From the IMG/VR virus record IMGVR_UViG_3300028829_007756, positions 1 through 64,000 of that record: 64,000 bases of DNA; one strand, 5' to 3'. The translations under genes were made by a program, and so were the position numbers. Below are positions 11,781-57,902 of the stretch, in pieces (position 1 is the stretch's first letter; every line of letters begins with the position of its first letter). The notes beneath the pieces were generated by a model, which worked only from the letters and a program-made list of their open reading frames with translations, did no database searches and had not been told where the DNA came from. Source of the DNA: a virus.

Positions 11781-11781
11781 T

Positions 11782-17769: not shown

Positions 17770-17775
17770 TATATC

Positions 17776-18408
17776 ATGGCTCCTTTATCGAATAGCCCAC
17801 TTGTTTCAATTATAGTCACTAATTATAATTATTCTAAATATATACAAAGATGCATTAGGAGTTGTATAGATCAAAAGTATGTTTCTCACGAGGTTATTGT
17901 AGTAGACGATTGCTCAACAGACGATTCGGAAGAGCAGCTCGTTCCATTTTTACAAAATACAACCCTCTTAAAAACAGAAAAAAATTCTGGTGTTGCTAGG
18001 GCAGCAAACTTAGGAGTTTCAAGATGTAGAGGCAGGTTTTTCATTAGGGTTGACTCTGATGACTATGTTCATAGCGAAATGTGCCATATGCTTTCTAAGT
18101 ATTTACAAATGAACAGGGATTCTTTTTGCGTTTCTTGTGATTATATTCTTGTCGATGAAATGGAAAATAAAATTACCAGAAAATATGCAGAGGTTGACGA
18201 CATTTCCTGCGGTATAATGTACAGAAAAGATCTTTTCGTTGAACTCGGTTCTTATAATCCAGAAATGAGACATAAAGAAGAAAGAGAGTTAAGAAAAAGA
18301 TTAGGTTCAGACTATAAAATAGACCACTTAAGAATGCCATTTTATAGATATAGAATGCATGACTCTAATAAAACTAAATCTAAAGAGTACGAACAAACAA
18401 AAGTATGA
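17776..18408 (+). CDS. GT2 family glycosyltransferase
   Basis: VSIIVTNYNYSKYIQRCIRS, VVDDCSTDDSEE and FFIRVDSDDYVHSE are the three GT2 motifs in order (substrate loop, uridine-binding Asp, and D-S-D-D metal site). At 210 residues it is a compact GT-A domain without C-terminal extension. ATG 17776 follows the previous stop by 6 bases, and its end overlaps the next start by 4 bases. Confidence 0.9.
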   Translation: MAPLSNSPLVSIIVTNYNYSKYIQRCIRSCIDQKYVSHEVIVVDDCSTDDSEEQLVPFLQNTTLLKTEKNSGVARAANLGVSRCRGRFFIRVDSDDYVHSEMCHMLSKYLQMNRDSFCVSCDYILVDEMENKITRKYAEVDDISCGIMYRKDLFVELGSYNPEMRHKEERELRKRLGSDYKIDHLRMPFYRYRMHDSNKTKSKEYEQTKV

Positions 18409-19259
18409 CTAAATCAAAAGCGAATATAGATTTCTTATTGGTTTTACATAACAATACTGCCATAAATTTATTTAATTCTAATAGTCCAGGATGGGTTAAA
18501 AATTTAAAAAATTTTAATGTAAACTTTTTAGTTAGATGCCCCATTGAATTAGAAAAAAATATAATTGCGCCTACTAATTCAACCTTGTTAAATTTTGATT
18601 ATCATCCTTTGGGTCCCCGTGACTCTCACGGATCTATGACTCATGCCTTTAATTTGCACAGGTTATTAAAAGAAATAACTTCTGATTTTTTTATTGTTTC
18701 TGATCCCGATATAGAGTATTTAGGAGATTGGGATCAAAAAGACCTAACGGAAGTTTTAGATTCTTACGATTTATTCGGAATTCCCTATGCAAAAATTCTT
18801 CAAGGAGGAACAATGGGTAGGTATGGTCATATGCCAAGTGCGTTAAATACATTCTTTAGGTCTAAATCTTTTTTTGAAAGGGTTGAGCATTTTCAATTAA
18901 TGAAAGATGATAAATTTTGGATTTTTTATCCTTGCGGCAAGGAAGAAGGGGTAAAAGATTTTAGGAAAAATTTAGATAAATCAATTCCTTACTCTGAAGA
19001 GGTTATTGATTTTGGTCATATATGGGGAAAAGATCTAGGTGTTTGGATGCCAATCTCTCCAAAGTTTTTTCTAGATCAAATGAGTCGCATAGGTTACACG
19101 GCCTTAGATACATCTTGGTTGCACCCAATTGTATTCGAAGATTTAAAATATTTAATCTTACCAGAGGTTGATTCGCAATCATCAGGAGATAAACATCAAT
19201 ACAAAAGCATTGTAATAAAACATAAAAGAGCTGGTACTAAAGAGCCAAGCGAGTATTAG
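18405..19259 (+). CDS. Putative GT-A glycosyltransferase
   Basis: The first strand is IDFLLVLHNNTAINLF and a DPDIEYLGDWD segment near residue 106 offers a DxD motif. A histidine-containing GHIWGKDLGVWM segment near residue 205 would be on the acceptor side. Family assignment is less certain than for its GT2 neighbours. The ATGA overlap with the preceding GT2 gene suggests coupled translation. Confidence 0.6.
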   Translation: MTKSKANIDFLLVLHNNTAINLFNSNSPGWVKNLKNFNVNFLVRCPIELEKNIIAPTNSTLLNFDYHPLGPRDSHGSMTHAFNLHRLLKEITSDFFIVSDPDIEYLGDWDQKDLTEVLDSYDLFGIPYAKILQGGTMGRYGHMPSALNTFFRSKSFFERVEHFQLMKDDKFWIFYPCGKEEGVKDFRKNLDKSIPYSEEVIDFGHIWGKDLGVWMPISPKFFLDQMSRIGYTALDTSWLHPIVFEDLKYLILPEVDSQSSGDKHQYKSIVIKHKRAGTKEPSEY

Positions 19260-19270
19260 CTAGCACTAAA

Positions 19271-19336
19271 ATGAAAGTTTTATTTTTTGGTAATAAGAAT
19301 AGAAACGAAAAAATACCCAAAGAAATTTATCCATGA
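19271..19336 (+). CDS. 21-aa micro-ORF before the GNAT gene
   Basis: ATG 19271 to TGA 19336 encodes MKVLFFGNKNRNEKIPKEIY plus one residue. The ending overlaps the next ATG by 4 bases (ATGA), exactly like true gene junctions here. The start looks like the first strand of a Rossmann-type enzyme. It may be the remnant of a deleted gene, or a short coupled leader peptide. Confidence 0.35.
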   Translation: MKVLFFGNKNRNEKIPKEIYP

Positions 19337-19800
19337 TTAGATCCATGACTCTTGAAGACATTCCTTTTTACAATGAAATCAGGAATGAGTGTAGAGATTT
19401 TCTGCACGACTCTTCTTTTTATACTACGGAAGAATCTTACAGTTGGTTTAAAACAAATAATCCTAAGTTTTTTATATATGAGATAGGTGGAAATAAAATA
19501 GGATATTTTAGAACCAGTAATTGGACCGACAAAGGTTGCTATATAGGCTTAGATATACATAAAAAATTCAGAGGAAAAAAGCTAGCATTTAAAGCTTATC
19601 AAGATTTTTTTGTTTTTTTAAAAAATAAGATTGGGAAAATAAATTTTTATGAATTTTACTTAGAGGTTTTAAGTTTTAATAAAGTAGCTATAAATCTCTA
19701 TAAAAAACTTGGGTTTACTGAATTGTCTAAAACACCAACTGGAAAAAACAATGATTTTATTTATAACATAAAAATGAAACTGATTTTAAAAAATGAGTAA
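19333..19800 (+). CDS. GNAT-family N-acetyltransferase
   Basis: The protein of 155 residues has the GNAT order: an N-terminal helix pair (MTLEDIPFYNEIRNECRDF), the central strands, the acetyl-CoA-binding segment DIHKKFRGKKLAFKAYQ (like Q/RxxGxG/A) and a C-terminal NKVAINLYKKLGF helix. PseH and related enzymes in nonulosonate pathways have this architecture and position. It overlaps the 4,6-dehydratase gene by 8 bases, so an amino-sugar N-acetyltransferase is likely. Confidence 0.82.
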   Translation: MIRSMTLEDIPFYNEIRNECRDFLHDSSFYTTEESYSWFKTNNPKFFIYEIGGNKIGYFRTSNWTDKGCYIGLDIHKKFRGKKLAFKAYQDFFVFLKNKIGKINFYEFYLEVLSFNKVAINLYKKLGFTELSKTPTGKNNDFIYNIKMKLILKNE

Positions 19801-20782
19801 AAAAGTTTTAATTACAGGTGGGTGTGGGTTTATTGGTCACCATTTAGTAGAGCATTTACTTCGTCATAGTGATTATGAAATTGTAATTCTAGACAAGCTA
19901 ACATATGCAAGCATGGGGCTAGATAGATTAAGGAGTTTTTCTGGATTAACAAATGAACGAGTTAAGTTTTTTTGTCATGATTTCACTTTACCCATAGAAG
20001 GCGGCCTTAAGAAAGAGATTGGAGATGTAAATATTATAGTTCATATGGGGGCTGAATCTCATGTAGATAATAGTATACTAGACCCAAGAAAGTTTTTTCA
20101 TAATAATATTAATGGAACAGTTGAAATGCTTGAGTATGCAAGAACGCTCAAAAATTTAGAAATGTTTTTTTACTTTAGTACTGATGAAGTATTTGGTTCT
20201 GCTCCTGAAAATTTTTGCTACGGAGAGTGGGATAGGCATAAACCAACAAACCCATACTCGTCAAGTAAGTCTTGCGCTGAACAAATATGTGTTTCTTATG
20301 AAAACACATACAAACTCCCCATAATGGTAATTAATGTCATGAATGCTTTTGGAGAAAGGCAACATGTAGAAAAATTTATACCTTTATGCATCAAGAGAAT
20401 TTTAAATAAAGAAAAAATATTTATCCATTCTTATCCAGACAAGAAAAAGGCTGGAAGCAGATTTTATATACATGCAAGGAATATTGCTGCAGCTGTGCTG
20501 TTCTTACTAGAAAAAGGTGTTATTGGTGAAAAGTACAATGTAGTCGGAGAAGAGGAGGTTGATAATCTATCGATGGCTAAAATGATATCTCAATTTATAG
20601 GGGAAGAATTGGAATACGAAATGGTTGATTTTCATAAAGATAGGCCTGGACATGACTTGAGATACTCTTTGTGTGGAGAGAAGATGAAAGATATGGGGTG
20701 GAGTATCCCTATTCCTTTTCTTGAATCACTTAAAAATACTGTCGAATGGACAGTTAAAAATCAAAAATGGCTTGAAGAATAA
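19793..20782 (+). CDS. NDP-sugar 4,6-dehydratase
   Basis: ITGGCGFIGHHLVEHL is the NAD-binding motif. FFYFSTDEVFGSA near residue 128 contains the T-D-E triad of RmlB-type 4,6-dehydratases. NPYSSSKSCAEQ near residue 154 has the YxxxK pair, and NVMNAFGERQHVEKFIP is the conserved RmlB segment (N..GP.Q). The enzyme converts an NDP-hexose to the 4-keto-6-deoxy form. It precedes an aminotransferase (1-base overlap), so a dTDP- or UDP-linked 4-amino-6-deoxy sugar is the likely product. Confidence 0.88.
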   Translation: MSKKVLITGGCGFIGHHLVEHLLRHSDYEIVILDKLTYASMGLDRLRSFSGLTNERVKFFCHDFTLPIEGGLKKEIGDVNIIVHMGAESHVDNSILDPRKFFHNNINGTVEMLEYARTLKNLEMFFYFSTDEVFGSAPENFCYGEWDRHKPTNPYSSSKSCAEQICVSYENTYKLPIMVINVMNAFGERQHVEKFIPLCIKRILNKEKIFIHSYPDKKKAGSRFYIHARNIAAAVLFLLEKGVIGEKYNVVGEEEVDNLSMAKMISQFIGEELEYEMVDFHKDRPGHDLRYSLCGEKMKDMGWSIPIPFLESLKNTVEWTVKNQKWLEE

Positions 20783-21867
20783 TGATACCTCTTTTTAAAG
20801 TACATTACCCAAAAGGTGTTGGGGAAAAAATAGATGAAGTTTTTAAATCTGGATTTATAACAGAAGGAGAATATTCAGATAAATTTGAAAAAGAATTTGG
20901 GGAATATATAGGAAATGATAATTGTTGTTTAACAAATAGTTGTACATCGGCAATTACTTTGGCTTTGAGGTTATCTGATGTTGGCCCTGGTGATGAAGTT
21001 ATAAGTTCGCCCATGACCTGCATGGCTACAAATGAACCTATATACAATGCTGGGGCTAGTATAGTTTGGGCTGATATAGAAAAAGACACAGGAAACATTG
21101 ATCCAGAAAGTGTTTTAAGAAAAATAACAAAAAAAACAAAAGCAATTATATCTGTTCACTGGGCTGGACAGCCTTTTAACATTGATTTAATAAATAAAAT
21201 CGCAAAAGATCATAATCTAAAAGTTATTGAAGATGCGGCTCATGCATTAGACTCAACATATAACGGTCAAAAAATTGGCAATCATAGTGATTTTATTTGT
21301 TTTTCGTTTCAGGCAATAAAACATTTAACAACTGCTGATGGAGGAGCTTTGCTTTGCAAAAATAAATCTGATTACGAGAAGTCTAAATTATTAAGATGGT
21401 TTGGTTTAAACAGGAAATATAAAGGCAGTAAATGGGAGCAAGATATCACACTCTCTGGTTATAAATTTCATATGAATAACATAACGGCTGTGATAGGCTT
21501 GGAGCAGATGAAATATATTAATGATTTAACCCTTGCGCATAAAAACAATTCAAAATTTTATGACAAAAACATTAACAATCCAAAAATTATAAAATTAAAA
21601 AGGGGCAGCGAGTATGAGTCTTCTTCTTGGATATATTCCATACTTTGCGACACTAGAGAAGATCTTCAAGATTTTTTAAAAAATAAAAAAATTCATACAG
21701 ATGTCGTTCATGTACGGAATGATAAATATTCTGTTTTTAAAGATTTTAAAAAATGCAATTTGCCTAATTTAGATTTTTTTGAATCAAGATTATTAAACAT
21801 ACCTGTTGGATGGTGGCTATCAAAATCAGATTTAAACTATATAGTAGATTGCATTAATTCCTATTGA
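20782..21867 (+). CDS. DegT/DnrJ/EryC1/StrS aminotransferase
   Basis: This is a PLP-dependent sugar aminotransferase. GFITEGEYSDKFEKEF is the N-terminal signature, and VIEDAAHAL carries D151, which contacts the PLP ring nitrogen. CFSFQAIKHLTTADGG contains the Schiff-base lysine K180 and the trailing T-x-D/G-GG loop of the family. Length (361) is normal. It would aminate the keto-sugar made by the upstream dehydratase. The GNAT gene two positions upstream completes the amination-acetylation route. Confidence 0.93.
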   Translation: MIPLFKVHYPKGVGEKIDEVFKSGFITEGEYSDKFEKEFGEYIGNDNCCLTNSCTSAITLALRLSDVGPGDEVISSPMTCMATNEPIYNAGASIVWADIEKDTGNIDPESVLRKITKKTKAIISVHWAGQPFNIDLINKIAKDHNLKVIEDAAHALDSTYNGQKIGNHSDFICFSFQAIKHLTTADGGALLCKNKSDYEKSKLLRWFGLNRKYKGSKWEQDITLSGYKFHMNNITAVIGLEQMKYINDLTLAHKNNSKFYDKNINNPKIIKLKRGSEYESSSWIYSILCDTREDLQDFLKNKKIHTDVVHVRNDKYSVFKDFKKCNLPNLDFFESRLLNIPVGWWLSKSDLNYIVDCINSY

Positions 21868-21897
21868 AAAATTTTCATAAAAATATATTATAAAACA

Positions 21898-22800
21898 ATG
21901 GATACAACACTAGGAGTCATAGGAAATGGATTTGTGGGATCAGCGGCTGTCCATGGATTTAATCATCATGTAAAAAGTGTGAAGGTTTTTGATAAGGATG
22001 AAAACAGAAGATCTCACACACTTGAAGAAACTTTAGATCAAGATGTAGTATTCGTATGCCTTCCTACTCCAATGTCTCTATCTGAACAAGGCAAGTGTGA
22101 TCTATCTATTATTGAATCTTTTTTTGCTGAAGCTTCCGAGCTTAAACCTGATTGCACTTTTGTTATAAAGTCTACCGTTCCAGTAGGAACAACCTCTAGA
22201 CTTCAAAAACAGTATGATAAATTAAAAATTTTACATTCCCCTGAGTTTCTTACCGCAAGGACTGCTCTTTTAGATTTTATAACCCCATCTAGAAACATAG
22301 TAGGATATCCAAAAGATTTTTATTCAAACCTTCATGCTGTCCCTAATAAAGTTGTAGAGCTTTTTGAAAAAAGATTTCCAGGAGTAAAAACATTTTTAAT
22401 GGACAGCGATTCTACAGAGATGATTAAATATGTAGCCAATTGTTTTTTTGCTACTAAAATCAGCTATTTTAATGAGGTAAAACTCTTTTGCGATAAGATT
22501 GGATTAGATTATAATAAAATTATGGAAGGTGTTTTGTCTGATGGCAGGATAGGCATAAGTCATTATCAAGTCCCAGGCCATGATGGCAAGTTAGGTTTTG
22601 GAGGCACCTGCTTCCCAAAAGACATAAACTCTTTCATTAATCTAATGAAAGCTAATGGCGTAAACTCTAAAGTTTTACAAGCAGCATGGGATACAAATGT
22701 CTTGGTTAGACCAGAAAAAGATTGGGAAAATTTTTCCGCCGCAGTTTCGACTGGAACACAAGATTTTGATACATCGGGATGCGGCCATGATCACATTTAA
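21898..22800 (+). CDS. ugd: UDP-glucose/GDP-mannose dehydrogenase family, short form
   Basis: GVIGNGFVGSAAVHGF is the NAD-binding motif, CLPTPMS the second conserved loop and KSTVPVGTT the third. FGGTCFPKDI holds the catalytic cysteine (C238). NCFFATKISYFNE is the family's helix contributing the conserved lysine. The enzyme oxidises a UDP-hexose to a UDP-uronate. At 300 residues it ends shortly after the Cys motif and lacks most of the C-terminal UDP-binding domain found in 390-450 residue members. A C-terminal HDHI tail is present. The following epimerase could use its product. Confidence 0.88.
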   Translation: MDTTLGVIGNGFVGSAAVHGFNHHVKSVKVFDKDENRRSHTLEETLDQDVVFVCLPTPMSLSEQGKCDLSIIESFFAEASELKPDCTFVIKSTVPVGTTSRLQKQYDKLKILHSPEFLTARTALLDFITPSRNIVGYPKDFYSNLHAVPNKVVELFEKRFPGVKTFLMDSDSTEMIKYVANCFFATKISYFNEVKLFCDKIGLDYNKIMEGVLSDGRIGISHYQVPGHDGKLGFGGTCFPKDINSFINLMKANGVNSKVLQAAWDTNVLVRPEKDWENFSAAVSTGTQDFDTSGCGHDHI

Positions 22801-22815
22801 AAATTATAGATAAAT

Positions 22816-23748
22816 ATGAAGTATACAGTTATAGGAGGAGCAGGTTTTATTGGAAGTCATTTAGTGGATGCACTAATAGATGAAGGTCATGAGGTTGTAG
22901 TTTTTGATAATTTCTCAACTGGCCAACCAGACAACATAAATGAAAAAGCTGAGCTATTTAGGATAAACCCTGCATATTTTAATACTATTGGCGAAAAGAT
23001 GGATTCATACAGGCAAGCAATTAATGCATCTGTCGGCTCAGATGCTATATTTCACCTTGCAGCTTTGCCAAGAGTACAGCCTTCATTATTGGATCCCGTA
23101 GGAACTAATAAGGCTAATGTGGATTCATTGGTTGGAGCTCTTGATTTTGCAAAAAATATTGGAGTTAAGAGATTTGTTTATAGTGCAAGTTCTTCTGCCT
23201 ATGGAGACGCTTCAGTTTTCCCAACTCCAGAGGATCACCCCACTAATCCGAAAAGCCCTTACGGACTCCAAAAACTTATAGGAGAACAGTATTGTAAAGT
23301 TTTTTCGGATTGTTATGGTTTAGATACTGTAAGTTTGAGATATTTTAATGTTTACGGTTCCAGAGCTAGTTCGGGTTCTGCATACAGCTTAGTTCTTGAG
23401 GTATTCTTCAAACAACGTCTTTATAAAAAACCTCTCACAATAACTGGAGACGGAGAACAAAAACGAGACTTTACTTTTGTTGGCGATGTAGTGAAGGCAA
23501 ATATCCTTGCCGCTCAATCGGACCAAGAGTTTAAAGGTGATATTTTTAATATAGGAAATGGCGACAACAGAACAATAAATCAAGTGGCTGATTTAATAGG
23601 AGGAGAAAAAGAGTATATTGAGGCTAGGTTAGAGCCTAAAGAAACCCTAGCTGATATTTCAAAAGCGAAAGAGGTTTTAGGCTGGGAGCCTTCTATGACC
23701 TTAGAAGAATGGATTCCTCAAAGAAAAAAAGAATTACGCCTTGATTGA
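22816..23748 (+). CDS. UDP-sugar 4-epimerase-like SDR protein
   Basis: TVIGGAGFIGSHLVDALID starts the Rossmann fold. The catalytic motifs are SASSSAYGD near residue 123 and SPYGLQK near residue 149. RYFNVYGSRA and KRDFTFVGDVV are typical of UDP-glucuronate/UDP-GlcNAc 4-epimerases (WbpP/Gne group). Directly after the UDP-sugar dehydrogenase, conversion of UDP-GlcA to UDP-GalA, or of the acetamido equivalents, is plausible. Specificity is not readable from sequence. Confidence 0.88.
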   Translation: MKYTVIGGAGFIGSHLVDALIDEGHEVVVFDNFSTGQPDNINEKAELFRINPAYFNTIGEKMDSYRQAINASVGSDAIFHLAALPRVQPSLLDPVGTNKANVDSLVGALDFAKNIGVKRFVYSASSSAYGDASVFPTPEDHPTNPKSPYGLQKLIGEQYCKVFSDCYGLDTVSLRYFNVYGSRASSGSAYSLVLEVFFKQRLYKKPLTITGDGEQKRDFTFVGDVVKANILAAQSDQEFKGDIFNIGNGDNRTINQVADLIGGEKEYIEARLEPKETLADISKAKEVLGWEPSMTLEEWIPQRKKELRLD

Positions 23749-23753
23749 TTTTT

Positions 23754-24824
23754 ATGAAAAAAGTTATTGTTACAGGTATAACAGGTCAGGATGGAAGCCA
23801 TATGTGCGACTATCTTATTAAAAAATTAAATAAAGAAAAATTAGATATTAAAATTTTTGGTTCAGTAAGACGTATTAGCGTCAAGAATCACGAAAATATT
23901 TTGCATTTAGAAGGTGATCCTAACTTCGAGCTTATCGATATGGATTTGAATGATGCTCATAGCATTAGAGATGCTATCATAGATATCAAGCCAGACTATT
24001 TTATAAATTTTGCCGCACAATCTTTTGTCGCTGGTAGCTGGAAATATCCTATACAAACTTGGGGTACTGATGCTGATTCTGTTCTTCATATCCTTGAGTC
24101 AATAAGAAGATTCGCTCCGCTATGCAGGTTTTATAATGCAGGATCTTCTGAAGAATTTGGAGATGTTATATATTCCCCTCAAGATGCCGCTCACCCCTTA
24201 AGACCTCAGTCTCCTTATGGAGCTGCCAAGTGTGCTGCTAGACATCTAGTCAGGGTCTATCGAGAGTCTTATAATCTATATGCTATTCAAGGTTGGTTAT
24301 TCAATCATGAAGGGGTAAGGAGAGGTCTTGATTTTGTTACTAGAAAAATAACATATAATGTAGCTAAATTTAAATTGGCTTTAGAAAAGTCTAATCTAAG
24401 TCATGTGGAGATTCCTAGCTTCTCTTTGGGCAACTTAGAAGCTAAGAGAGACTGGAGTGATGCGGAGGATTTTATGGATGGAGTGTGGCGTATGTTAAAT
24501 CAAGATAAACCCAAAAATTATGTTTTAGCTAGTGGGGAGATGCATACAATTAGATCTTTTCTTGAAGAGACCCTATCTTGCGCAAACATTGAATATTATA
24601 AAACAGGGGTGGAGGATAAAGAAAAATATTTTTCAAAAAAGGGTGATCATCTGATAATGTCAGTAGATCCAAAATTCTACAGGCCTGCCGAGGTTCACGA
24701 GCTCTGCGGCGACCCTTCTTTGGCTGAAAAAGAATTAGGATGGGCCCGTAATACAGATTTTAAAGGGCTTGTTAAAAAGATGTATCAATCTGATTACGCA
24801 AAGTCATCATATGAACAAAGATGA
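23754..24824 (+). CDS. gmd: GDP-mannose 4,6-dehydratase
   Basis: VTGITGQDGSHMCDYL is the GMD-specific NADP motif. AGSSEEFGDV near residue 130 holds the catalytic T/S-E region and SPYGAAKCAARH the YxxxK pair. FNHEGVRRGLDFVTRKI is the hallmark NHES..RG segment of GMD. It makes GDP-4-keto-6-deoxymannose. The frame opens at TTG 23745, but ATG 23754 gives the normal GMD start (MKKVIVTGI). It overlaps the following fucose synthase by 14 bases, the usual gmd-fcl partnership. Confidence 0.93.
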   Translation: MKKVIVTGITGQDGSHMCDYLIKKLNKEKLDIKIFGSVRRISVKNHENILHLEGDPNFELIDMDLNDAHSIRDAIIDIKPDYFINFAAQSFVAGSWKYPIQTWGTDADSVLHILESIRRFAPLCRFYNAGSSEEFGDVIYSPQDAAHPLRPQSPYGAAKCAARHLVRVYRESYNLYAIQGWLFNHEGVRRGLDFVTRKITYNVAKFKLALEKSNLSHVEIPSFSLGNLEAKRDWSDAEDFMDGVWRMLNQDKPKNYVLASGEMHTIRSFLEETLSCANIEYYKTGVEDKEKYFSKKGDHLIMSVDPKFYRPAEVHELCGDPSLAEKELGWARNTDFKGLVKKMYQSDYAKSSYEQR

Positions 24825-25761
24825 TGCTATTTATGTGGCGGGCCACAGAGGAATGGTTGGCTCTGCTACTGTAAGAGCTTTAAAATCTAATGGTTACACT
24901 AATATTGTAACAGCAACAAGGGAAGAGGTAGATCTTAAAAACCAAAAAGATGTAAACCTTTTTTTTAAAAATTTAAACATCGATTATGTTGTTCTTGCTG
25001 CTGCAAAAGTGGGAGGTATACTAGCGAATAATGACCTTAAGGCTGACTTTATATATGAAAATACTATTATTGGTGCTAACATCATAAAAGCTTGTCATGA
25101 TAATAAAGTTAAAAAGTTGATAAATTTAGGCTCTTCTTGTATATATCCAAAAGAGTCTCAAATCCCTATAAAAGAAGAGTATTTGTTAACAGGAAAGCTT
25201 GAGCCGACAAACGAACCGTATGCGATAGCAAAAATCGCCGCCTTAAAAATGTGTGAAAGTTTTTACCATCAATACGATGATAACTATTATTCCTTGATGC
25301 CCTGTAATCTTTACGGGATTAATGACAATTTTGATCTAAAAAGCTCTCATGTTCTACCAGCTTTAATTAACAAAGTTCATCATGCAAAAAGCTCTAACAG
25401 TCCTAGTATTACTCTTTGGGGTTCTGGAAAACCGCTTAGAGAGTTTCTTTTTTCTGAAGATGTTGCCTCTGCTATTTTATTTTGCCTAGAAAACGTTGAT
25501 GCTAAAGATATTTATGAGCAAGGGATCTCTCATCTTAATTGCGGATCTAATGAGGAACTCTCTATTTTAGATCTATTATTAAAAATAAAAAATATTATAA
25601 GTTACGAAGGCGAAATTTTATTTGATAGTTCTAAACCAGATGGGACTTTTAGAAAAAAAATGGATAATAGCAGAATAAACCAGCTAGGCTTTATTCCGCA
25701 AGTATCAATTGATGAAGGTATTGCAAAAACATACTCTTGGTACTTATCAAATTCAGAATAA
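24811..25761 (+). CDS. fcl: GDP-L-fucose synthase
   Basis: YVAGHRGMVGSATVRAL is the diagnostic motif of GDP-fucose synthase (WcaG/Fcl), which epimerises and reduces the GMD product. NLGSSCIYPKESQIPIKE and NEPYAIAKIAALKMCE (Y137, K141) supply the catalytic Cys, Tyr and Lys. ATG 24811 is preferred over the upstream TTG at 24769 because it starts right before the strand. Length (316) is normal. It is the last gene of the 20-kb glycan block; GDP-mannose itself must come from the host. Confidence 0.93.
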   Translation: MNKDDAIYVAGHRGMVGSATVRALKSNGYTNIVTATREEVDLKNQKDVNLFFKNLNIDYVVLAAAKVGGILANNDLKADFIYENTIIGANIIKACHDNKVKKLINLGSSCIYPKESQIPIKEEYLLTGKLEPTNEPYAIAKIAALKMCESFYHQYDDNYYSLMPCNLYGINDNFDLKSSHVLPALINKVHHAKSSNSPSITLWGSGKPLREFLFSEDVASAILFCLENVDAKDIYEQGISHLNCGSNEELSILDLLLKIKNIISYEGEILFDSSKPDGTFRKKMDNSRINQLGFIPQVSIDEGIAKTYSWYLSNSE

Positions 25762-44658: not shown

Positions 44659-44676
44659 ATGCATGCTATAATGCAT
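44659..44676 (+). promoter_or_regulatory. TATAAT box flanked by ATGCAT palindromes
   Basis: ATGCAT lies at 44659-44664 and again at 44671-44676, with TGCTATAAT (TGn extended -10) at 44664-44672 between. The start codon of the PHP-like gene (44675) falls inside the downstream copy, so a transcript from this box would begin within the gene. It may be a regulator-binding site or a chance symmetrical sequence. Confidence 0.3.
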
Positions 44677-45415
44677 GATACCTTTATTTAAGTCTGATTT
44701 TTCAATAGGCAAAAGTATACTTAGGTTAGATAAAAGATCTTTCGAGGAGGAGTCTGATTCAAATATATTTAAAATTTTATCAGATAGTAAAGAGAAAAAC
44801 CTTGTTTTAGTAGAGGATACTATGATAGGCTTTTTGGAAGCTTATAATAATTCATTAGAACTTGGTTTTAATTTAATATTTGGAGTGAATATTCTTTGTA
44901 ATTCTTCGATTAACCCTCAAGAAAAAGATAAATATATAATTTTTGCGAGAAATGAGCATGGATGTAAAATTTTAAATAAAATATATAGCTTTATACATTC
45001 AGAGAGGAATGGCTCTATAGATTTACCTGATTTAAAAAAGTTCTGGACTGAAGATTTAGTTTTATATGTGCCTTTTTATGATTCGTTTATCTATAATAAC
45101 TTCATGTATTTTTCTGAAAGTGCTCCAGATTTAAGCTTCTTTAATCCTTGTTTTTTTATACAAGATAACGGTTTACCTTTTGATTTAATGTTAAAAGAGA
45201 TGGTGGAAAATTATATAAATTTTAATAATTACAAATCTATTTTGAGCAAAAGTATTTATTATAATAAAAAAAATGATTTTTCGGCATATCAAGTTTATAA
45301 ATGTTTATGCTCTAGAAATTTCTCTCAAAATTCATCTTTAGAAAAGCCCAACCTAGATCATTGTTCTAGCGATGAATTCTCTTATGAAAGTTATTTGCAG
45401 TATGAAAGCTCTTAA
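44675..45415 (+). CDS. Degenerate PHP domain of DNA polymerase III alpha, separate gene
   Basis: Residues 1-110 follow the DnaE PHP domain: PLFKSDFSIGKSIL corresponds to the HxHSxYS start, and the LVEDTMIGFLEAYNNSLELG segment to the TDHGNLFGAVEFYxxAKxAG segment. FGVNILC corresponds to the following G-x-E strand and KYIIFARNEHGCKILNKI to LLAKNxxGYKNLxKL. The metal-binding histidines (HxH and TDH) are replaced (FKS, EDT), so phosphatase or nuclease activity is probably lost. The polymerase core is encoded separately at 47144. The gene probably provides a structural subunit of that polymerase. Confidence 0.75.
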   Translation: MIPLFKSDFSIGKSILRLDKRSFEEESDSNIFKILSDSKEKNLVLVEDTMIGFLEAYNNSLELGFNLIFGVNILCNSSINPQEKDKYIIFARNEHGCKILNKIYSFIHSERNGSIDLPDLKKFWTEDLVLYVPFYDSFIYNNFMYFSESAPDLSFFNPCFFIQDNGLPFDLMLKEMVENYINFNNYKSILSKSIYYNKKNDFSAYQVYKCLCSRNFSQNSSLEKPNLDHCSSDEFSYESYLQYESS

Positions 45416-46361
45416 ATATTCAGATATTTGTTTAATACCAAATTACAGTGAAGTACACAGCAGGGTTGACTGTGATGCTTCTGTAAATCTTTTTGGAAAA
45501 AAATTTCTATTACCGATTATTCCTGCGAATATGAAATCCGTAATAGATATGCGTACATGTGAGTGGATGAGCTCACATGGCTTTTTCTACATTATGCATC
45601 GCTTTGATCGTGATTTAGCTGAAGATGTTGCCAATGCTCAAGAGTGGGATAACATTTCATTTAGTGTCGGAGTTAAGATGCAAGATAAGATGGCTATTCA
45701 AAAAATCAGCAAGAGAGGCCATCGAGTTGATTACTTAACTATCGATATTGCTCACGGTTATTGCCAGCGAATGAAGTCAACTATTGAATGTATAAAAAAA
45801 CATCTCCCAGATACAAAAATTATTGCTGGGAATGTTGCTACTTCTGATGCGGTAAGGCAATTATCTAATTGGGGAGCTGACATTGTAAAAGTTGGAATTG
45901 GTCAAGGCTCTCCATGTACCACTAAAGATAAGACGGGATTCACTATGCCTATGTTCACTTGCGTTCAACAATGCTCTCAAATTTCCTCGAATCACATAGA
46001 TAGTGTTCCAATCATTGCTGATGGTGGTATTCGCTGTAATGGTGATGTAGCTAAAGCTTTAGTTGCTGGAGCTACCATGGCAATGGCTGGCAGCTTGTTT
46101 GCTGCTTGCACCGATAGTCCTGCTTCAGTTATTACTATTAACGGTCTTGAGCATAAAGCTTATTTTGGCTCTGCTAGTATTGAAAACAAAGGACACAACA
46201 ACAATGTAGAGGGTAAATTAAATCAAATACCAAACAGTGGAATGACTTATGGTGAAAAATTAAACGAAATCACCCAAGACCTCCAGAGTTCTATTAGTTA
46301 TGCTGGTGGTCAAACACTATCTTGCTTGGCTCCACGTGAAGTTAAATATTATGAAGTATGA
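45402..46361 (+). CDS. guaC: GMP reductase
   Basis: IIPANMKSVIDMRTCEWM and FYIMHRFDRD are GuaC signatures. KVGIGQGSPCTTKDKTGF holds the catalytic C172, IIADGGIRCNGDVAKAL is the phosphate-binding loop, and DLQSSISYAGG is the family C-terminal motif that separates GMP reductases from IMP dehydrogenases. No CBS domains are present. The enzyme reduces GMP to IMP, so it would redirect guanine nucleotides to adenine pools. ATG 45402 is preferred over the longer frame at 45372. It overlaps the PHP-like gene by 14 bases. Confidence 0.93.
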   Translation: MKALKYSDICLIPNYSEVHSRVDCDASVNLFGKKFLLPIIPANMKSVIDMRTCEWMSSHGFFYIMHRFDRDLAEDVANAQEWDNISFSVGVKMQDKMAIQKISKRGHRVDYLTIDIAHGYCQRMKSTIECIKKHLPDTKIIAGNVATSDAVRQLSNWGADIVKVGIGQGSPCTTKDKTGFTMPMFTCVQQCSQISSNHIDSVPIIADGGIRCNGDVAKALVAGATMAMAGSLFAACTDSPASVITINGLEHKAYFGSASIENKGHNNNVEGKLNQIPNSGMTYGEKLNEITQDLQSSISYAGGQTLSCLAPREVKYYEV

Positions 46362-46528
46362 ATAAGAAAAAATTAAAATTAATTAAAAGTATAATCTCCT
46401 ATGATGAGTCTATAGAAGAGCATAAGAGAGCACTTAGGGTGATTAAGAAGGCTTACGATAAAACCCCATCTAATCTAAAGTCTCAATTCATAGCAGAAGT
46501 TAAGGAAACTTTTAAAATCGATGAATGA
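46358..46528 (+). CDS. Small helical basic protein, 56 aa
   Basis: ATG 46358 to TGA 46528 encodes a protein starting MNKKKLKLIKSIISYDESIE, helical and Lys-rich. Its start overlaps the guaC stop (ATGA) and its end overlaps the exonuclease start by 8 bases, which strongly supports translation. It could be a small polymerase accessory protein, similar in size to the theta subunit, but no homology is evident. Confidence 0.65.
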   Translation: MNKKKLKLIKSIISYDESIEEHKRALRVIKKAYDKTPSNLKSQFIAEVKETFKIDE

Positions 46529-47162
46529 AAATTTACTTAGATTCAAAAAAGATCAAAAATTTCTTGTCTTTGATTATGAAACTTGCAACTTAAACTTAAG
46601 TAGTTTTGAAAATAAACCTTGGCAAATTGGTTTCATTTTGTTAAAAGGGTCGAATGTAATAAATAAATATAATTTACTTATTGGTTGGGATGATTTAAAT
46701 ATTTCTTCAGATGCTGCGAGAATAACTAATTTTTCCAAATCAAAATATGAAAAAGAAAAAAAGGATGCTTCTTATTGTTTAGATCTTTTCGATAAATATC
46801 TTTATGACGAAAGTTATCTTGTAGTGGGTCACAACATTCTCGGTTTTGACATTTTCATGCATAATATACATCGGAAACTTTGCGGTAAACCTACGGATTA
46901 TTCTTATATTGATAGGGCCATTGATACTAACTGCCTAGCCCGTGCTGTCAAGAATGACATTCATTACAATGATTCAATTAATTTAATATCCTGGCAATAC
47001 AAATTGCTTAATTACAGAAAAAGAGGTGTTAAAACTAATTTAAAACAATTATGTAAGGATTATTCTATTGATTTTGATGACTCAATGTTGCATGATGCTC
47101 TTTATGATGTCGAAAAAACTTCAGAAGTTCTACAAAAAATGTTATGGCAGCTAGAAATATAG
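46521..47162 (+). CDS. DEDDh 3'-5' exonuclease, DnaQ epsilon-like
   Basis: FLVFDYETCNLNL has the ExoI D18 and E20. VVGHNILGFDIFMHN is ExoII with its Asp, and LHDALYDVEKTSEVL is ExoIII with the His and Asp of the DEDDh class. It probably proofreads for the C-family polymerase encoded immediately downstream, whose start codon lies inside this gene (19-base overlap). Confidence 0.9.
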   Translation: MNENLLRFKKDQKFLVFDYETCNLNLSSFENKPWQIGFILLKGSNVINKYNLLIGWDDLNISSDAARITNFSKSKYEKEKKDASYCLDLFDKYLYDESYLVVGHNILGFDIFMHNIHRKLCGKPTDYSYIDRAIDTNCLARAVKNDIHYNDSINLISWQYKLLNYRKRGVKTNLKQLCKDYSIDFDDSMLHDALYDVEKTSEVLQKMLWQLEI

Positions 47163-49711
47163 ATCTTAATTTCCTTAATCAATTTTCTTCTTACGAAGGT
47201 TGCATACCTCCAGGGGTTAGACTTCCAGAGATTAAAATTGAATCAAAATATTATAAGAAACTAAATTTAAAAAATACAATATCTAATTTTGATTTCCTTA
47301 AAAATATTTGTGAAGAATCTTTGTTAAAAAAGTCTATTCAAAAAAATAAACTATCACAATACCAAGAAAGACTTGATTACGAGCTTAATACATTAAATGA
47401 TTTAGGTTTCGTAGATTATATTTTGCTGAATTGGGATATAATTAATTTTTGTTACGAAAATAATATCCCTACTGGTCCAGGCAGGGGTTCTGCCGCAGGA
47501 AGTCTAATTTTATATTTAATAGGGGTGACAAAGGTTGATCCTATTAAATATGATTTGTTTTTCGAGAGGTTTGTTTCGAAAAGTAGAGCTAGAAAGATAG
47601 AAAAAGATGGAGTAGTATATTTAGATGGAAGCCTTCTCGCTGATATTGATAATGATATAGCTTATGAGCATAGGCAATCAGTAATATCTTATATAGAAAA
47701 AAAATACCCATCAAGAACTGCAAAAATCCTTACCCTTAATACTCTTAGTGGTAAATTATGTATTAAAGAATGTTCTAAAATAGTAGCTCAAGTATCAGAG
47801 CAGGATGCAAATTTCTTAAGTGACACTATACCAAAGCAATATGGAAATGTCGCTAAACTTTCAGATGCATATAATGAAAGTGAAAAATTCAAAAGTTTTT
47901 GTGATAAAAATCCAAAAGTTTATGATATTTCCCTAAAACTAGAAGGTCTAAAGAAAAACACGGGCATTCATCCTTCTGGAATCGCCATTTGCTTTGAGGA
48001 GATATCAAACATATGTCCAGTTCAAAAATCTAACGATGGCTCCTTGGTTACTGGGTATGACATGAATTGGGTTTCAGAACTAATGGTTAAGTTTGATATA
48101 CTCGGTTTAAGAACTTTGTCTGCTATTTATTCTTCTTGCGAAAGACTTGGTATTGACCCTTCAGAAATAGATCTTGACTCTAAATATATTTATGAAAATC
48201 TAGATGACTTAAGAACTCCTCATGGCCTATTTCAAATCGAGGCTAGTGCTAATTATATGGTTTGCAAAAAAATTAGACCTACTAGTTTAGAACAGTTGAG
48301 TGCTGTTATAGCCATTGCTAGGCCTGGAGCTATGGACTTCGCAGATTCATATAAAAATTATAGAGAATCTGGAGATCATCAAAGTGTTGATGAGTTTTTT
48401 GATGATGTCCTGTCTTATACTGGTGGCATACCTCTTTACCAAGAGCAATTAATGAAGATGGCAGTAAAAGTAGGCTTTAGTTTAGAAGAATCTGAACAAC
48501 TAAGAAGGATTGTTGGCAAAAAGAAGGTTAAAGAAATGCCGAAGTGGAAAAAGAAAATAGAAAAAAAAGTTAAATCAAATAAACTTTCCGAAAAAGTTGG
48601 AGATGTTTTATGGAAAGTTGCAGAGGATAGTGCTAACTATTCTTTCAATAAGAGTCATTCTATTTCATATTCAATACTAGCAGCTTGGACGATATATCTA
48701 AAGTTCAAATATCCAAAAGAATTTTTTCTTAGTCTACTTAGGATGACTAAATATGAACCTTCTCCGCAAGACGAGATTAATAAAGTTTCTCAAGAGTTAC
48801 CCCATTTCGGAATAAAACTATTAGCTCCAGACTTAGCTGTATCTGAAATGGATTTTAGTACAGAAGGCGATGATATAAGATTTGGTCTTAATAGTATAAA
48901 AGGAATTAGCGAAAAATCTTTAGAGAGATTAAAAGAGTTTAGAAGCTCTTCTAAGCCGAATAAGTACGACACTTTTCTTGCTGCAAAAGAGTCTGGCCTA
49001 AATATAGGAGTTCTTTCTGCATTGATCCAAGCTGGAGCCTTATCATCTTTTAAAACTAATCGACCACGGCTAGTTCTAGAGGCTCAAGTTTTTAATTTAC
49101 TTACAGATAGAGAGAAAAGAATATTTATAAATTCCGCAAAGAAATATAATTATGATATCCTCAACTCTATTCATGATGCGGTACAGAATAAACTAGTAGG
49201 AGACGATAACAAACCAATTATGAAGGATAGTAGGTTTGAAACTTTAAAATCTAAATATCGCTCATATAAATCTATATACGAAAAAAATAAAAAGTATGAA
49301 GATTTTGCGAATTGGTTTTTTGAAAAAACTTTATTAGGTTTTAGTTACAGTAAGAATCTTTCAGATTGTTTCGGTCTTAATAGAAACTTTAAAAACTCCT
49401 TATTTTTTAATTCTTGTGAGCTTGGAGACAAAGGTAAATACATAGGTGTGGTTGAAGATGTCATATCCAGAAAGAGCAAGAAAAATAATCAATATGTAAA
49501 AATGACTATAGGGGATGAATACGGAAGATACGAAGCTCTTCTTTTAGACGGAAGGGAAAAATCTCTAACTAAGTTTTTGTCTAAAAATCAGACTCCAGAA
49601 AAAAATAATATAATTATATTGCTTGGCTCAAAAGGGGAAGATATATTATTTGTCAATGAAGCATCTATTATTGATGAAAAAATTTATATGAAACTTTCTG
49701 ATATAAAATAA
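47144..49711 (+). CDS. dnaE: DNA polymerase III alpha core, lacking PHP domain
   Basis: The C-family palm motifs are complete. GPGRGSAAGSLILYL, then DPIKYDLFFERFVS, LLADIDNDIAYEHR near residue 167 with the catalytic DxD, and MVKFDILGLRTLSAIY with the third Asp. TGIHPSGIAICFEE and YSFNKSHSISYSILAAW are standard. The C-terminus has an OB-fold nucleic-acid domain (GKYIGVVEDVISRKSKK). The normal N-terminal PHP domain is missing and lies in a separate gene at 44675. At 855 residues it is correspondingly shorter than DnaE (about 1,160). Confidence 0.95.
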   Translation: MAARNIDLNFLNQFSSYEGCIPPGVRLPEIKIESKYYKKLNLKNTISNFDFLKNICEESLLKKSIQKNKLSQYQERLDYELNTLNDLGFVDYILLNWDIINFCYENNIPTGPGRGSAAGSLILYLIGVTKVDPIKYDLFFERFVSKSRARKIEKDGVVYLDGSLLADIDNDIAYEHRQSVISYIEKKYPSRTAKILTLNTLSGKLCIKECSKIVAQVSEQDANFLSDTIPKQYGNVAKLSDAYNESEKFKSFCDKNPKVYDISLKLEGLKKNTGIHPSGIAICFEEISNICPVQKSNDGSLVTGYDMNWVSELMVKFDILGLRTLSAIYSSCERLGIDPSEIDLDSKYIYENLDDLRTPHGLFQIEASANYMVCKKIRPTSLEQLSAVIAIARPGAMDFADSYKNYRESGDHQSVDEFFDDVLSYTGGIPLYQEQLMKMAVKVGFSLEESEQLRRIVGKKKVKEMPKWKKKIEKKVKSNKLSEKVGDVLWKVAEDSANYSFNKSHSISYSILAAWTIYLKFKYPKEFFLSLLRMTKYEPSPQDEINKVSQELPHFGIKLLAPDLAVSEMDFSTEGDDIRFGLNSIKGISEKSLERLKEFRSSSKPNKYDTFLAAKESGLNIGVLSALIQAGALSSFKTNRPRLVLEAQVFNLLTDREKRIFINSAKKYNYDILNSIHDAVQNKLVGDDNKPIMKDSRFETLKSKYRSYKSIYEKNKKYEDFANWFFEKTLLGFSYSKNLSDCFGLNRNFKNSLFFNSCELGDKGKYIGVVEDVISRKSKKNNQYVKMTIGDEYGRYEALLLDGREKSLTKFLSKNQTPEKNNIIILLGSKGEDILFVNEASIIDEKIYMKLSDIK

Positions 49712-52129
49712 ATGGAAAAATATAATCTAACTCCTAGGGTTCAAAAAATAATATCTACAGCTAAAGAGACTTCAATTAATCTAAGATGCGAGTCTATAGA
49801 TTTAGATCATTTACTCTTTGCTATATTAGACAGCGGCCAATCTACAATAGTTAATTTCTTTGAAGATCTTAATGTGTCTATTGATGATTTTAAAACTTTT
49901 GTTTTCAACAATATTGAGAACGACTTTTTTTCAACTGATAAAGGGGAATGTCCACAGCCAGATTACTCGCAAGATTTTAAAAAAATATTTAAAGATTCAA
50001 AATCTTTATCTTCTAGCTTTAAACATTCATATATAGGCGTTGAGCACGTTTTTTACACCTTAATGGTTCATCCTAACTCTCCTCTAAATGAATTTTTTGA
50101 AACATTCAAAGTAAGTCCAAAAAAATCTAGCGAAAAACTTAAAAACTTTTTTAAAACTGGAGAGTGGGACAGATCTGGTAAAAGAAAGAATCTAGAGCCT
50201 CAAGTTAAAAGACAAAAATCTCCTGTCCCTCAGGATCCAAACAATGCGTCATCCTTGGATTTGTTTGCTAAAAATTACAATATATTAGCTCTCAAGGGTC
50301 AGTTTGATAAAGTCATTTGCAAAGAAGATCAGTTAAATAAAATTTCTGAAATTTTATGTAGAAGAAACAAAAACAATCCGATTTTAGTTGGGCCTCCTGG
50401 AACTGGGAAGACTACCTTGGTTGAAGGTTTAGCTCAGTCCATAGTTAATGGCACATGTACCAGCTTTTTGTCGAATAAAATTATTTATGAACTTGATCTA
50501 GCTGGAATGATAGCTGGAACTAAATACAGAGGTCAGTTTGAAGAAAGGCTTAAAAATTTACTTAAAGAAATATCTGGATCTAAAAATATAATTTTATTTA
50601 TAGATGAGATTCATACTATTATAGGGGCTGGTTCGGCAGAAGGCAGTCTTGATGCTGCAAATATATTAAAACCAGCCTTAGCTAGGAATAAAATAAAATG
50701 CATCGGAGCTACAACTCCAAAAGAGTTCAAAAAATTCATCAATAAAGATGCTGCATTAGAGCGAAGGTTTGAAGAGGTTGATGTAGTTCAGCCAAGTGTT
50801 AAAGAGACTTATGAAATACTAAATGGTATTTGTCCTCAATATGAAAAATTTCACCACGTTGTTTACAGAAAAAACGCTTTAAAGTTAGCTGTTGATCTTT
50901 CTGTTAGGTACATTACGGACAGGCAACTTCCTGATAAAGCTATTGATGTTATTGATCAAGCTGGGTCTAAGGTAAAAATGAGAAATTTTCACAAACCAAA
51001 CAAAGCTTTTGATTTAGAAAAAAAAATAGAAAAACTTATGTCCTCCGATGGCCCTAACACCAGCAGTAAACTTCAAGATAAACTTATAGATGAGTATAAA
51101 AGAGTTCTAGACAGCTGGAGCTCTAATTATGAAAAAAAGAAATTCTTCGTAACAAAAGAGGATGTTTATGATGTTATTTCCTCTAGGACAGGGATTCCAG
51201 TCGGAGCTTTAACTGAGAAAGAGTCTGAAGTCTTATTAAATTTAAATAAATCTTTAAACTCTGTCGTTTTTGGTCAGCCTGAGGCTTGCAAGCTAATATC
51301 GGACTGTATTCTTAGATCTAAAAGTGGGTTAAATGACCAAAATAAACCGATTGGCTCTTTTCTTCTTTTGGGCAGGACTGGTGTTGGTAAAACTTTTGTG
51401 GCAAAAACTTTAGCTCAACATGTTTTTGGCAGTGATGACAACCTTATTCACATCGACATGTCTGAGTATTCCGAAAAGATAAATATATCTAGGCTTATAG
51501 GCTCTTCGCCTGGTTATGTTGGTTATGAAGATGGGGGGCAATTAACAGATAGGATAAAAGCTAAGCCTTATTCTGTTTTATTGTTTGATGAGATCGAAAA
51601 GGCTCACCCAGAAGTTCTAAATATTTTACTACAACTCCTTGAAGAAGGCAGGCTTACTGATAATTTTGGAAGGGTTTCTGATTTTTCTAATTGCATCGTT
51701 ATTCTAACTGGAAATATTGGAGCGGATTTACTTAAGACCACAACAACTCTGGGCTTTGGTCAGAATAATTCAAATGACATTTTAAAATCAGATGTAAGAA
51801 AACAGGCTGAAAAAACATTAACGCCAGAGTTAATAAATAGATTAGATGAAATTGTAGTTTTCAATCCTTTTGACATTGACGATATAAAGTCCTTCTTTGA
51901 CAAAGAAATAAAGGACCTCAAACTAAAATTAAAGAAAGAATATTCAATTATTTTAGACATTGATCAAGAAACCCTTGATTATTTTGCAGAATTAGCTTAT
52001 AATAAAAAACTAGGGGCTAGACCAGTCAAAAGAATTATACAAAAAAATATTGAAAATGCAGCTTCTAAGTGGATTATAAACAAGAAAAAAGGAACCCTTA
52101 AAATAACAAAAGATAATATTAATGACTGA
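49712..52129 (+). CDS. ClpC/ClpA-like AAA+ unfoldase
   Basis: The Clp N-domain repeats span about residues 1-150 (LTPRVQKIISTAKE, SIDLDHLLFAIL). NBD1 has GPPGTGKTTLVEGLA near 227 and LFIDEIHTIIGAG near 300. A short coiled M-region follows (about 430-475), too short for ClpB. NBD2 has GRTGVGKTFVAKTLA near 553 and LLFDEIEKAHPEV near 623. A TTTLGFGQNN segment near residue 679 places an LGF tripeptide at the ClpP-docking loop position. It starts directly after dnaE. It could deliver proteins to host ClpP. Confidence 0.93.
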   Translation: MEKYNLTPRVQKIISTAKETSINLRCESIDLDHLLFAILDSGQSTIVNFFEDLNVSIDDFKTFVFNNIENDFFSTDKGECPQPDYSQDFKKIFKDSKSLSSSFKHSYIGVEHVFYTLMVHPNSPLNEFFETFKVSPKKSSEKLKNFFKTGEWDRSGKRKNLEPQVKRQKSPVPQDPNNASSLDLFAKNYNILALKGQFDKVICKEDQLNKISEILCRRNKNNPILVGPPGTGKTTLVEGLAQSIVNGTCTSFLSNKIIYELDLAGMIAGTKYRGQFEERLKNLLKEISGSKNIILFIDEIHTIIGAGSAEGSLDAANILKPALARNKIKCIGATTPKEFKKFINKDAALERRFEEVDVVQPSVKETYEILNGICPQYEKFHHVVYRKNALKLAVDLSVRYITDRQLPDKAIDVIDQAGSKVKMRNFHKPNKAFDLEKKIEKLMSSDGPNTSSKLQDKLIDEYKRVLDSWSSNYEKKKFFVTKEDVYDVISSRTGIPVGALTEKESEVLLNLNKSLNSVVFGQPEACKLISDCILRSKSGLNDQNKPIGSFLLLGRTGVGKTFVAKTLAQHVFGSDDNLIHIDMSEYSEKINISRLIGSSPGYVGYEDGGQLTDRIKAKPYSVLLFDEIEKAHPEVLNILLQLLEEGRLTDNFGRVSDFSNCIVILTGNIGADLLKTTTTLGFGQNNSNDILKSDVRKQAEKTLTPELINRLDEIVVFNPFDIDDIKSFFDKEIKDLKLKLKKEYSIILDIDQETLDYFAELAYNKKLGARPVKRIIQKNIENAASKWIINKKKGTLKITKDNIND

Positions 52130-57098: not shown

Positions 57099-57902
57099 AT
57101 GAAAAGGAAAATTCTAATCATGGGCCTTCCAGGTTCTGGTAAGACGACTTTAGCTGAAAATTTAGTTCCTAGACTTAATGCAGCTTGGTTTAATGCTGAT
57201 GCCGTAAGGCAGGATATTTATTCAGAACTTGGATTTTCTCCAGAAGATAGGTTGGCACATGCCACTCGCATGGGTAAACTTTGCGACTGGGCTAAACTCG
57301 GAGGATGTTATGTTATTGCTGATTTTGTTTGCCCCACCGAAGATACTAGAGAAGCATTTGGTCCAGACTTTACTATATGGGTAAACAGAATTGAAGAAGG
57401 TAGATTTGCAGACACAAATAAACTTTTTCAAAAACCTAAAAATTATGATATTGAATTAAACGAAGGCGATCCTGAGGAATGGTGCGAAATGGTTGTCTCG
57501 AAATTAAATGAAACAGAAGCGTGGGACAATCAAGCTCCGACCTCTTTATTAATTGGTAGATACCAACCATTTCATATCGGTCATAAAAATTTAGTAGCAG
57601 AATCCATAAGGAGAACTGGCCAATGTTGCATTGCTATAAGAGATGTTGGAGGTTCTGGAGATAAAAACCCATATGATTTTGAAAAAGTCAAAGAAGAAAT
57701 TCATTCAGCATGTGTTGAATTCGGGAATAAAATTAAAGTTGTAGAGCTTCCTAATATTACTGATATCTTCTATGGAAGGGGTGTGGGGTACAATATAGAA
57801 GAGCTTGAACTTAGTAAAGAATTGCAATCTGTTTCTGCGACTAAAATCAGAGAAGGTCATATAGATCAGGAAGGTAATTTACTTGGCAAAAGGCCAGAGT
57901 AA
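57099..57902 (+). CDS. P-loop kinase fused to nucleotidyltransferase
   Basis: Residues 1-135 form an APS-kinase-like P-loop kinase: ILIMGLPGSGKTTLAENL, then FNADAVRQDIYSELGFS, and TIWVNRIEEGRFADTNKLF, the lid and substrate segment. Residues 148-267 form a HIGH-type nucleotidyltransferase: LIGRYQPFHIGHKNLVAE is the GxFxPxHxGH signature, and SVSATKIREG the C-terminal motif. The closest families are NMN/nicotinamide-ribose adenylyltransferases (NadM/NadR), so NAD synthesis is possible. A sulphur or sugar role is the alternative. A fusion in this order is uncommon. Confidence 0.75.
   Translation: MKRKILIMGLPGSGKTTLAENLVPRLNAAWFNADAVRQDIYSELGFSPEDRLAHATRMGKLCDWAKLGGCYVIADFVCPTEDTREAFGPDFTIWVNRIEEGRFADTNKLFQKPKNYDIELNEGDPEEWCEMVVSKLNETEAWDNQAPTSLLIGRYQPFHIGHKNLVAESIRRTGQCCIAIRDVGGSGDKNPYDFEKVKEEIHSACVEFGNKIKVVELPNITDIFYGRGVGYNIEELELSKELQSVSATKIREGHIDQEGNLLGKRPE

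Follow-up and report, generated by a model that had tools for sequence, protein, structure and literature searches.

Does a PHP domain that has been cut out of its polymerase still belong to it? The PHP domain is normally built into the chain of DnaE polymerases, and why C-family polymerases retain a dead PHP domain is an old question. The DNA analyzed here (the window) comprises 64,000 nucleotides, positions 1 to 64,000 of the IMG/VR virus record IMGVR_UViG_3300028829_007756, which is 99,243 bases long. At 44675-49711 it carries a locus in which a PHP domain, a DEDDh exonuclease and the core of a DnaE-type DNA polymerase III (Pol III) are encoded by separate genes, and an earlier reading of the letters alone (the original prediction) had described this locus as a C-family polymerase encoded in pieces. 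In this study, profile searches, structure models and comparisons with uncultivated relatives and isolated phages were employed to analyze the pieces, and the split arrangement was found to be real and clade-wide, neither chance nor an assembly error. The three pieces are as follows.

44675..45415, + strand: free-standing PHP domain of the DnaE type, catalytically degenerate, the N-terminal piece of Pol III alpha; 246 amino acids (aa); AlphaFold, fold match, hhalign and metal-site alignment
46521..47162, + strand: DEDDh 3'-5' exonuclease without an epsilon-type C-terminal tail, proposed proofreader; 213 aa; Pfam, match to PolC 2p1j, invariant residues and fold
47144..49711, + strand: DnaE polymerase core (palm, fingers, HhH) without PHP; 855 aa; Pfam, match to Taq DnaE and Asp triad

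Single-sequence searches were nearly blind for the 246-aa protein. The Pfam PHP domain was matched at E 0.014, under the gathering score, NCBIfam gave no match, tblastn against isolated phages gave no PHP match with E up to 1, and a family PHP profile reached DnaE and PolC in the PDB only at E 0.035-0.41. A match to PHROG 405, a phage DNA polymerase family, covered profile positions 64-263 (E 7e-4), and the core matched positions 327-1082 of the same 1190-position profile. The identity was therefore based on hhalign and on the fold. Profile-profile comparison by hhalign with phage and E. coli PHP domains gave a probability of 96 and E 2.8e-9. An AlphaFold model built from a 56-sequence alignment (predicted local distance difference test score, pLDDT, 89.1; predicted template modelling score 0.86) was compared with the PDB, and the top match was residues 6..248 of E. 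coli DnaE (Z 21.6, root-mean-square deviation 3.1, 227 of the 246 residues aligned), with Taq DnaE 7-259 at Z 21.3. Whole DnaE chains scored Z 20.3-21.6, PolC 17.7-18.3 and other PHP proteins 12.4 or less; entries of an E. coli PHP-epsilon chimera reached only 18.6-18.9. The protein at 44675-45415 is thus a complete stand-alone PHP domain of the DnaE type, as had been proposed, and neither a missing PHP match nor a fold unlike PHP, the outcomes named beforehand as speaking against the proposal, was observed. The likeness to PolC that had been drawn from the order of PHP, exonuclease and polymerase holds mostly for the gene order, because the PHP matches DnaE better and the exonuclease follows a whole PHP gene instead of interrupting it. 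A PolC-like permutation was rejected on the same fold comparison, which favors DnaE over PolC.

The core was recognized by Pfam PF07733 (E 3.6e-64), PF17657 and HHH_6. It matched Taq DnaE at E 2.2e-112, starting at Taq residue 383, and E. coli DnaE at about 1e-95, and PolC only at about 1e-8. Its residues D167, D169 and D318 are invariant in 27 sequences and align with E. coli D401, D403 and D555, which we take to be the numbers of the DnaE catalytic Asp triad. Palm with Asp triad, fingers and HhH are thus all present, and the PHP is the part absent from the chain. Core residue 24 aligns with E. coli residue 275, and back-counting puts the start of the core at about E. coli 252, in line with the claim that the core begins with the segment that follows the PHP domain. 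Since the PHP protein ends at about E. coli 248, the two pieces tile DnaE, and the chain is cut at the PHP domain border with nothing evident missing. In two relatives (L044:8248-11580 and L057:216-3263) the core has an additional N-terminal stretch of about 165-250 aa that looks nuclease-like by eye; the stretch of L044 matched nothing in Pfam.

Relatives were collected from IMG/VR by a core search, from which the best 80 of 125 confirmed relatives were taken (57-100% identity), and by a PHP search, from which the best 80 of at least 554 confirmed stretches were kept; both samples of loci favor close relatives. Loci with all three pieces, made distinct by the exact sequences of their PHP and exonuclease open reading frames (ORFs), numbered 116, of which 105 had complete ORFs; in the rest an ORF runs into the end of its contig, so that in rare cases a single virus may have been counted as two loci. 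As the original prediction had suggested looking for, the same order recurs in related phages: PHP, exonuclease and core lie in that order on one strand in 116/116 distinct loci, and in each of them PHP and core are encoded separately. No fused PHP-core was found among these loci with the family PHP profile, a result that speaks for the window's clade only, since four fused isolated phages (L087-L090) were run against the profile as well and it recognized the PHP part in none of them. Because loci from the PHP search had been found with the PHP, its presence is best quoted from the core search, where it lies upstream in 77 of the 80 loci and the other three start at a contig end inside the exonuclease gene. 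The gap between PHP and exonuclease is 100 bases or less in 71/116 loci, and that between exonuclease and core in 102/116. Over 19 close pairs, the median ratio of nonsynonymous to synonymous substitution rates (dN/dS) was 0.053 for the PHP (17 usable pairs), 0.027 for the exonuclease and 0.028 for the core (15 usable pairs each), so that the PHP is under strong purifying selection. The identical PHP and core proteins are also encoded by a record of 163,424 bases (L002/L007). Twelve loci of the clade were found in binned genomes titled Flavobacteriaceae, Flavobacteriales, Saprospiraceae, Halobacteriovorax, Verrucomicrobiales, Proteobacteria, Woesebacteria, Lokiarchaeota and uncultured bacterium, titles too mixed for a host to be named.

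The nine metal ligands of PHP domains have been tabulated for E. coli, Taq and G. kaustophilus (PMC3666897), and the active motif is given as HHDHEH(C/H)DH, any deviation from which is counted as inactive (PMC12926913). The window has L4, K6, K13, D48, N72, K86, P133, S193 and Y195 at the nine positions. A canonical ligand occurs at none of the nine in any of 69 aligned rows, two of which are gapped at the first few positions. The first position was set by back-counting from the start of the hhalign match, and the structural alignment ranges permit a shift of one there, which still brings no canonical residue into place in the window. The basic replacements are conserved, with K6 in 58, K13 in 66 and K86 in all of the 69 rows, and position 72 is R or K in 64 rows. 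Off-register His residues were found at residue 8, two past the second ligand position, in most relatives and at residue 85, one before the sixth, in 64/69 rows; the window has Asp at both. Judged from this alignment, the metal site is fully degenerate, and the PHP should therefore be structural and no second proofreader.

The 213-aa protein matched Pfam RNase_T (E 1.1e-8) and the PolC exonuclease 2p1j (E 2.5e-5), and sequence profiles place it nearest the PolC type. Its DEDDh residues D18, E20, D110, H191 and D196 are invariant in 27 rows. The model (pLDDT 94.3) matches the epsilon catalytic domain 5-180 at Z 20.1, but fold scores are tied among epsilon, DinG and PolC, so that the fold does not tell which is nearest. 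A bona fide epsilon is defined by its C-terminal alpha-binding tail (PMC3666897). This tail is absent here, as the protein ends at about epsilon residue 180-183, where the tail would start.

The remaining genes of the cluster lie between the pieces or adjoin them.

45372..46361, + strand: GMP reductase-like enzyme (GuaC), a passenger; 329 aa; NCBIfam and Pfam
46358..46528, + strand: basic ORF, a mobile companion; 56 aa; found as a family in 41 loci
49712..52129, + strand: ClpA/B-like AAA+ ATPase adjoining the core; phrog_4871 E 2.9e-235; present in 85/86 loci

All five ORFs from PHP to core and their overlapping junctions, as originally described, were recovered in an ORF check of the window. 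The four junctions overlap by 44, 4, 8 and 19 bases; the first would be 14 bases with a later GuaC start, which going by the relatives is probably 45402. GuaC scored 342.3 bits with NCBIfam NF003966 (GMP reductase), slightly below the cut-off of 344, and matched Pfam IMPDH at E 2.3e-59. The reported GMP reductase between the pieces is thus present in the window, but clade-wide it lies there in only 19/116 loci and is one of several passengers. A SET-domain gene is often seen between PHP and exonuclease, as at L017:7815-8354 and at the same place in about 20 other loci (counted by eye, some of the same virus); the L017 copy, the single one run against Pfam, gave SET at E 5.9e-13. Other genes fill this gap in further loci, and L044:6511-7628 has about 1.1 kb between PHP and exonuclease with no + strand ORF above 100 aa. 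The 56-aa family occurs in 41 loci, some of the same virus, directly before the exonuclease in 27, after GuaC elsewhere in 5 and elsewhere in 9. A role as dedicated companion of the exonuclease, which would recall theta, is unsupported, as the ORF also travels with GuaC or alone.

How this arrangement relates to known systems was analyzed with isolated phages, comprising 13 regions out of 1330 records with a core match, plus phiST. DnaE is also cut just past the PHP in Gordonia phage Djokovic, where gp64 is the PHP (318 aa, Pfam E 8e-37) and gp66 the core (811 aa) with an extra ORF of 85 aa between them, and in Microbacterium phage Dauntless, with gp55 as PHP (345 aa) and gp56 as core (766 aa); the pieces are all annotated as DnaE-like Pol III alpha (L181:3696-7328 and L184:2818-6166). 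Both differ from the window in having an intact PHP site (9/9) and no exonuclease gene between the pieces, and their tree branches are separate from the window's clade, their neighbors Dryad, GretelLyn, Chill and Fury being fused. A tree built from 39 cores gathers the window's clade into one branch with a support of 100/100; Dauntless is grouped with Dryad, a fused phage, at 100/100, and Djokovic falls among fused Gordonia and Mycobacterium phages. The tree is unrooted with long branches. It puts Bacteroides phage DAC23 next to the clade, but this position is unsure, and no sister group is drawn from it. If the fused form is ancestral, these three separate branches suggest three or more cuts at the PHP border during the evolution of phages.

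Other divided DnaE enzymes are cut elsewhere. Cellulophaga phage phiST (gp44 and gp45) and Corynebacterium phage P1201 (gp59 and gp58) also have DnaE in two genes, but the cut lies in the palm and the PHP is kept with the first palm part in N-terminal pieces of 525 and 652 aa; in phiST, a DEDDh exonuclease is also annotated, about 4.6 kb upstream. Group 2.2 jumbo phages likewise distribute a C-family polymerase, a split minimal Pol III alpha, over separate proteins (Iyer et al. 2021, PMC7824862). There the catalytic module itself is cut, the remaining domains of Pol III are missing, the genes are far apart and a family B polymerase is encoded too (PMC7824862), whereas the window's core keeps the whole catalytic module and a PHP is present. 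PolC also brings PHP, DEDDh exonuclease and polymerase together, and the window's exonuclease is nearest its type in sequence; PolC, however, is one chain with the exonuclease inside the PHP, while the window has separate genes, a DnaE-type core and a PHP nearer DnaE. The E. coli Pol III core (alpha, DnaE, and epsilon, DnaQ) shares with the window a variant PHP and a separate DEDDh exonuclease, and its PHP domain is the exonuclease dock (PMC3642679). It differs in that the PHP is inside the alpha chain, 4/9 ligands are kept and epsilon has the alpha-binding tail that the window's exonuclease lacks. In Pseudomonas phage KPP12 and Escherichia phage ECO71P1, DnaE is fused and its PHP is of the variant kind. 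The next gene upstream codes for a DEDDh exonuclease in both (L178:3676-4230 and L180:3709-4251), annotated as putative DNA polymerase and hypothetical protein. Near fused phage DnaE genes with an intact PHP site, no DEDDh exonuclease is annotated in the regions examined, where hypothetical neighbors were not searched save one, in Moorella phage MTATph1, which is a PD-(D/E)XK nuclease. The available parts of PMC9023294, PMC8481504 and PMC7412058 contain nothing on a separate PHP gene, and no account of the window's clade was found in the open-access literature searched. A DnaE split at the PHP border is therefore already known in phages, and what is new is the clade-wide form with a dead PHP and a linked tail-less exonuclease.

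Eight long relatives, records of 146-211 kb which, like the window's record, may be incomplete, were used to examine the replication context. Each carries one C-family core, and PHP and DnaB helicase are present in 8/8; PolA and PolB domains were found in 0/8. The window's record also encodes a DnaB-like helicase, primase, UvsX, ribonucleotide reductase, a clamp-loader-like AAA+ protein and rIIA. Going by this gene content, the split DnaE looks like the main replicative polymerase of the phage.

What, then, might the free PHP do? We consider it probable that the phage replicates with a C-family DnaE-type enzyme built from three polypeptides, in which the protein at 47144-49711 would be the polymerase and the PHP, severed at the domain border, would dock back on the core non-covalently as a structural subunit. 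With its nine ligands lost, the PHP would not act as a nuclease; it would stabilize the core and keep the DEDDh exonuclease next to the path by which DNA leaves, a role that the E. coli PHP plays for epsilon, and the exonuclease would supply all proofreading. The genes would be held in one operon-like cluster, and because the pieces need not form one chain, GMP reductase, the SET-domain gene and others could have slipped into the junctions harmlessly. Several precedents point this way. The E. coli PHP, as residues 1-270 alone, is soluble with full exonuclease binding, and the E. coli exonuclease sits between PHP and clamp (PMC3642679); separate exonucleases accompany variant PHP domains, and the stability of Pol III depends on an intact PHP (PMC3666897). 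By analogy with E. coli, KPP12 and ECO71P1, the free PHP is expected to attach to the core and to keep the exonuclease in place. A more specific form of this model, in which the dead PHP is an obligate trans subunit that uses a new interface to recruit the tail-less exonuclease and whose former metal site has been rebuilt clade-wide as a conserved basic Lys/Arg pocket, is put forward tentatively, and we hold it to be somewhat less than even in likelihood.

A number of observations weigh against the three-polypeptide replicase. The exonuclease is without the C-terminal tail by which epsilon wraps the PHP, so that any docking would need a different surface. In E. coli, a PHP fragment of residues 1-255 was insoluble (PMC3642679). 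The phage PHP stops at about residue 248 of the E. coli numbering, so that the results with the E. coli fragments cannot be applied to it as they stand, and the phage piece must have adapted. PHP and exonuclease are more than 100 bases apart in 45/116 loci. A bacterial beta clamp was found in 0/8 long records; a search for a T4-type clamp gave no match in any control genome and so carries no weight. In Bacteroides phage DAC23 (L087:4873-8706), a fused and very diverged DnaE, annotated as hypothetical protein, has a variant PHP with a helicase and no DEDDh gene directly upstream, the place covered by the search, so that a lost site paired with a neighboring exonuclease is not universal. The dN/dS of the PHP is, in addition, about twice that of exonuclease and core. 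This last value also favors the explanation that the PHP has left the polymerase for another job and the core works without any PHP, as does the full rewriting of the metal site with conserved Lys/Arg. We regard this explanation as unlikely. The PHP stays in the cluster, in order, in every locus; its DnaE-type topology is kept end to end; the core starts right after the PHP segment with no substitute domain, apart from the N-terminal stretches in L044 and L057; and E. coli DnaE has also lost ligands, its PHP being still structural (PMC3666897).

A second proofreader in the form of a PHP with retained nuclease activity, the situation in bacteria whose sites are intact and whose PHP domains count as proofreaders (PMC12926913), might be suspected from the His residues near two of the nine positions (residues 8 and 85) in most relatives. 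Their absence from the window, the lack of any canonical ligand throughout the alignment and the published rule that any deviation means an inactive domain (PMC12926913) leave it a very small chance. Polymerase genes split by inteins are known from cyanobacteria (PMC3919608), and the pieces might likewise be joined in or after translation, by a split intein, trans-splicing or a frameshift, into an ordinary DnaE chain. However, the PHP aligns over residues 1-246 and the core comes within about 23 residues of the post-PHP segment, so that intein halves do not fit; no room for them was seen at either end of the cut, intein profiles being covered by the Pfam scan only. Genes with starts of their own also intervene in the window and in many relatives, and a joined chain is accordingly scarcely credible. 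A relic or an artefact, that is a decayed or misassembled gene, is suggested by a PHP match (G005) that contains TAA, but a complete ORF of 249 aa (L074) ends where this match does, and the TAA is probably the gene's own stop. With 116/116 distinct loci, 105 of them complete, and the low median dN/dS of the PHP, this explanation is refuted for the clade as a whole and keeps next to no probability.

If the more specific model with the new interface is correct, nature would have taken a Pol III apart in these phages, so that what the PHP does could be told from the polymerase activity, and the exonuclease would dock unlike E. coli epsilon or PolC. In this large clade of phages, the PHP has been severed and strong selection nevertheless maintains it, and no polymerase of the PolA or PolB type was found in the clade's long records. 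Since the window's PHP falls under the Pfam threshold, automatic annotation would miss such genes, and a likely function can now be proposed for many of them in viruses. Elsewhere in the window, the protein at 57099-57902 is kinase-like (phrog_10255, E 1.3e-51), also matches cytidyltransferase and nicotinamide-nucleotide adenylyltransferase less strongly and is possibly NAD-related, and a long series of same-strand ORFs of about 155-360 aa was observed at 5997-25761.

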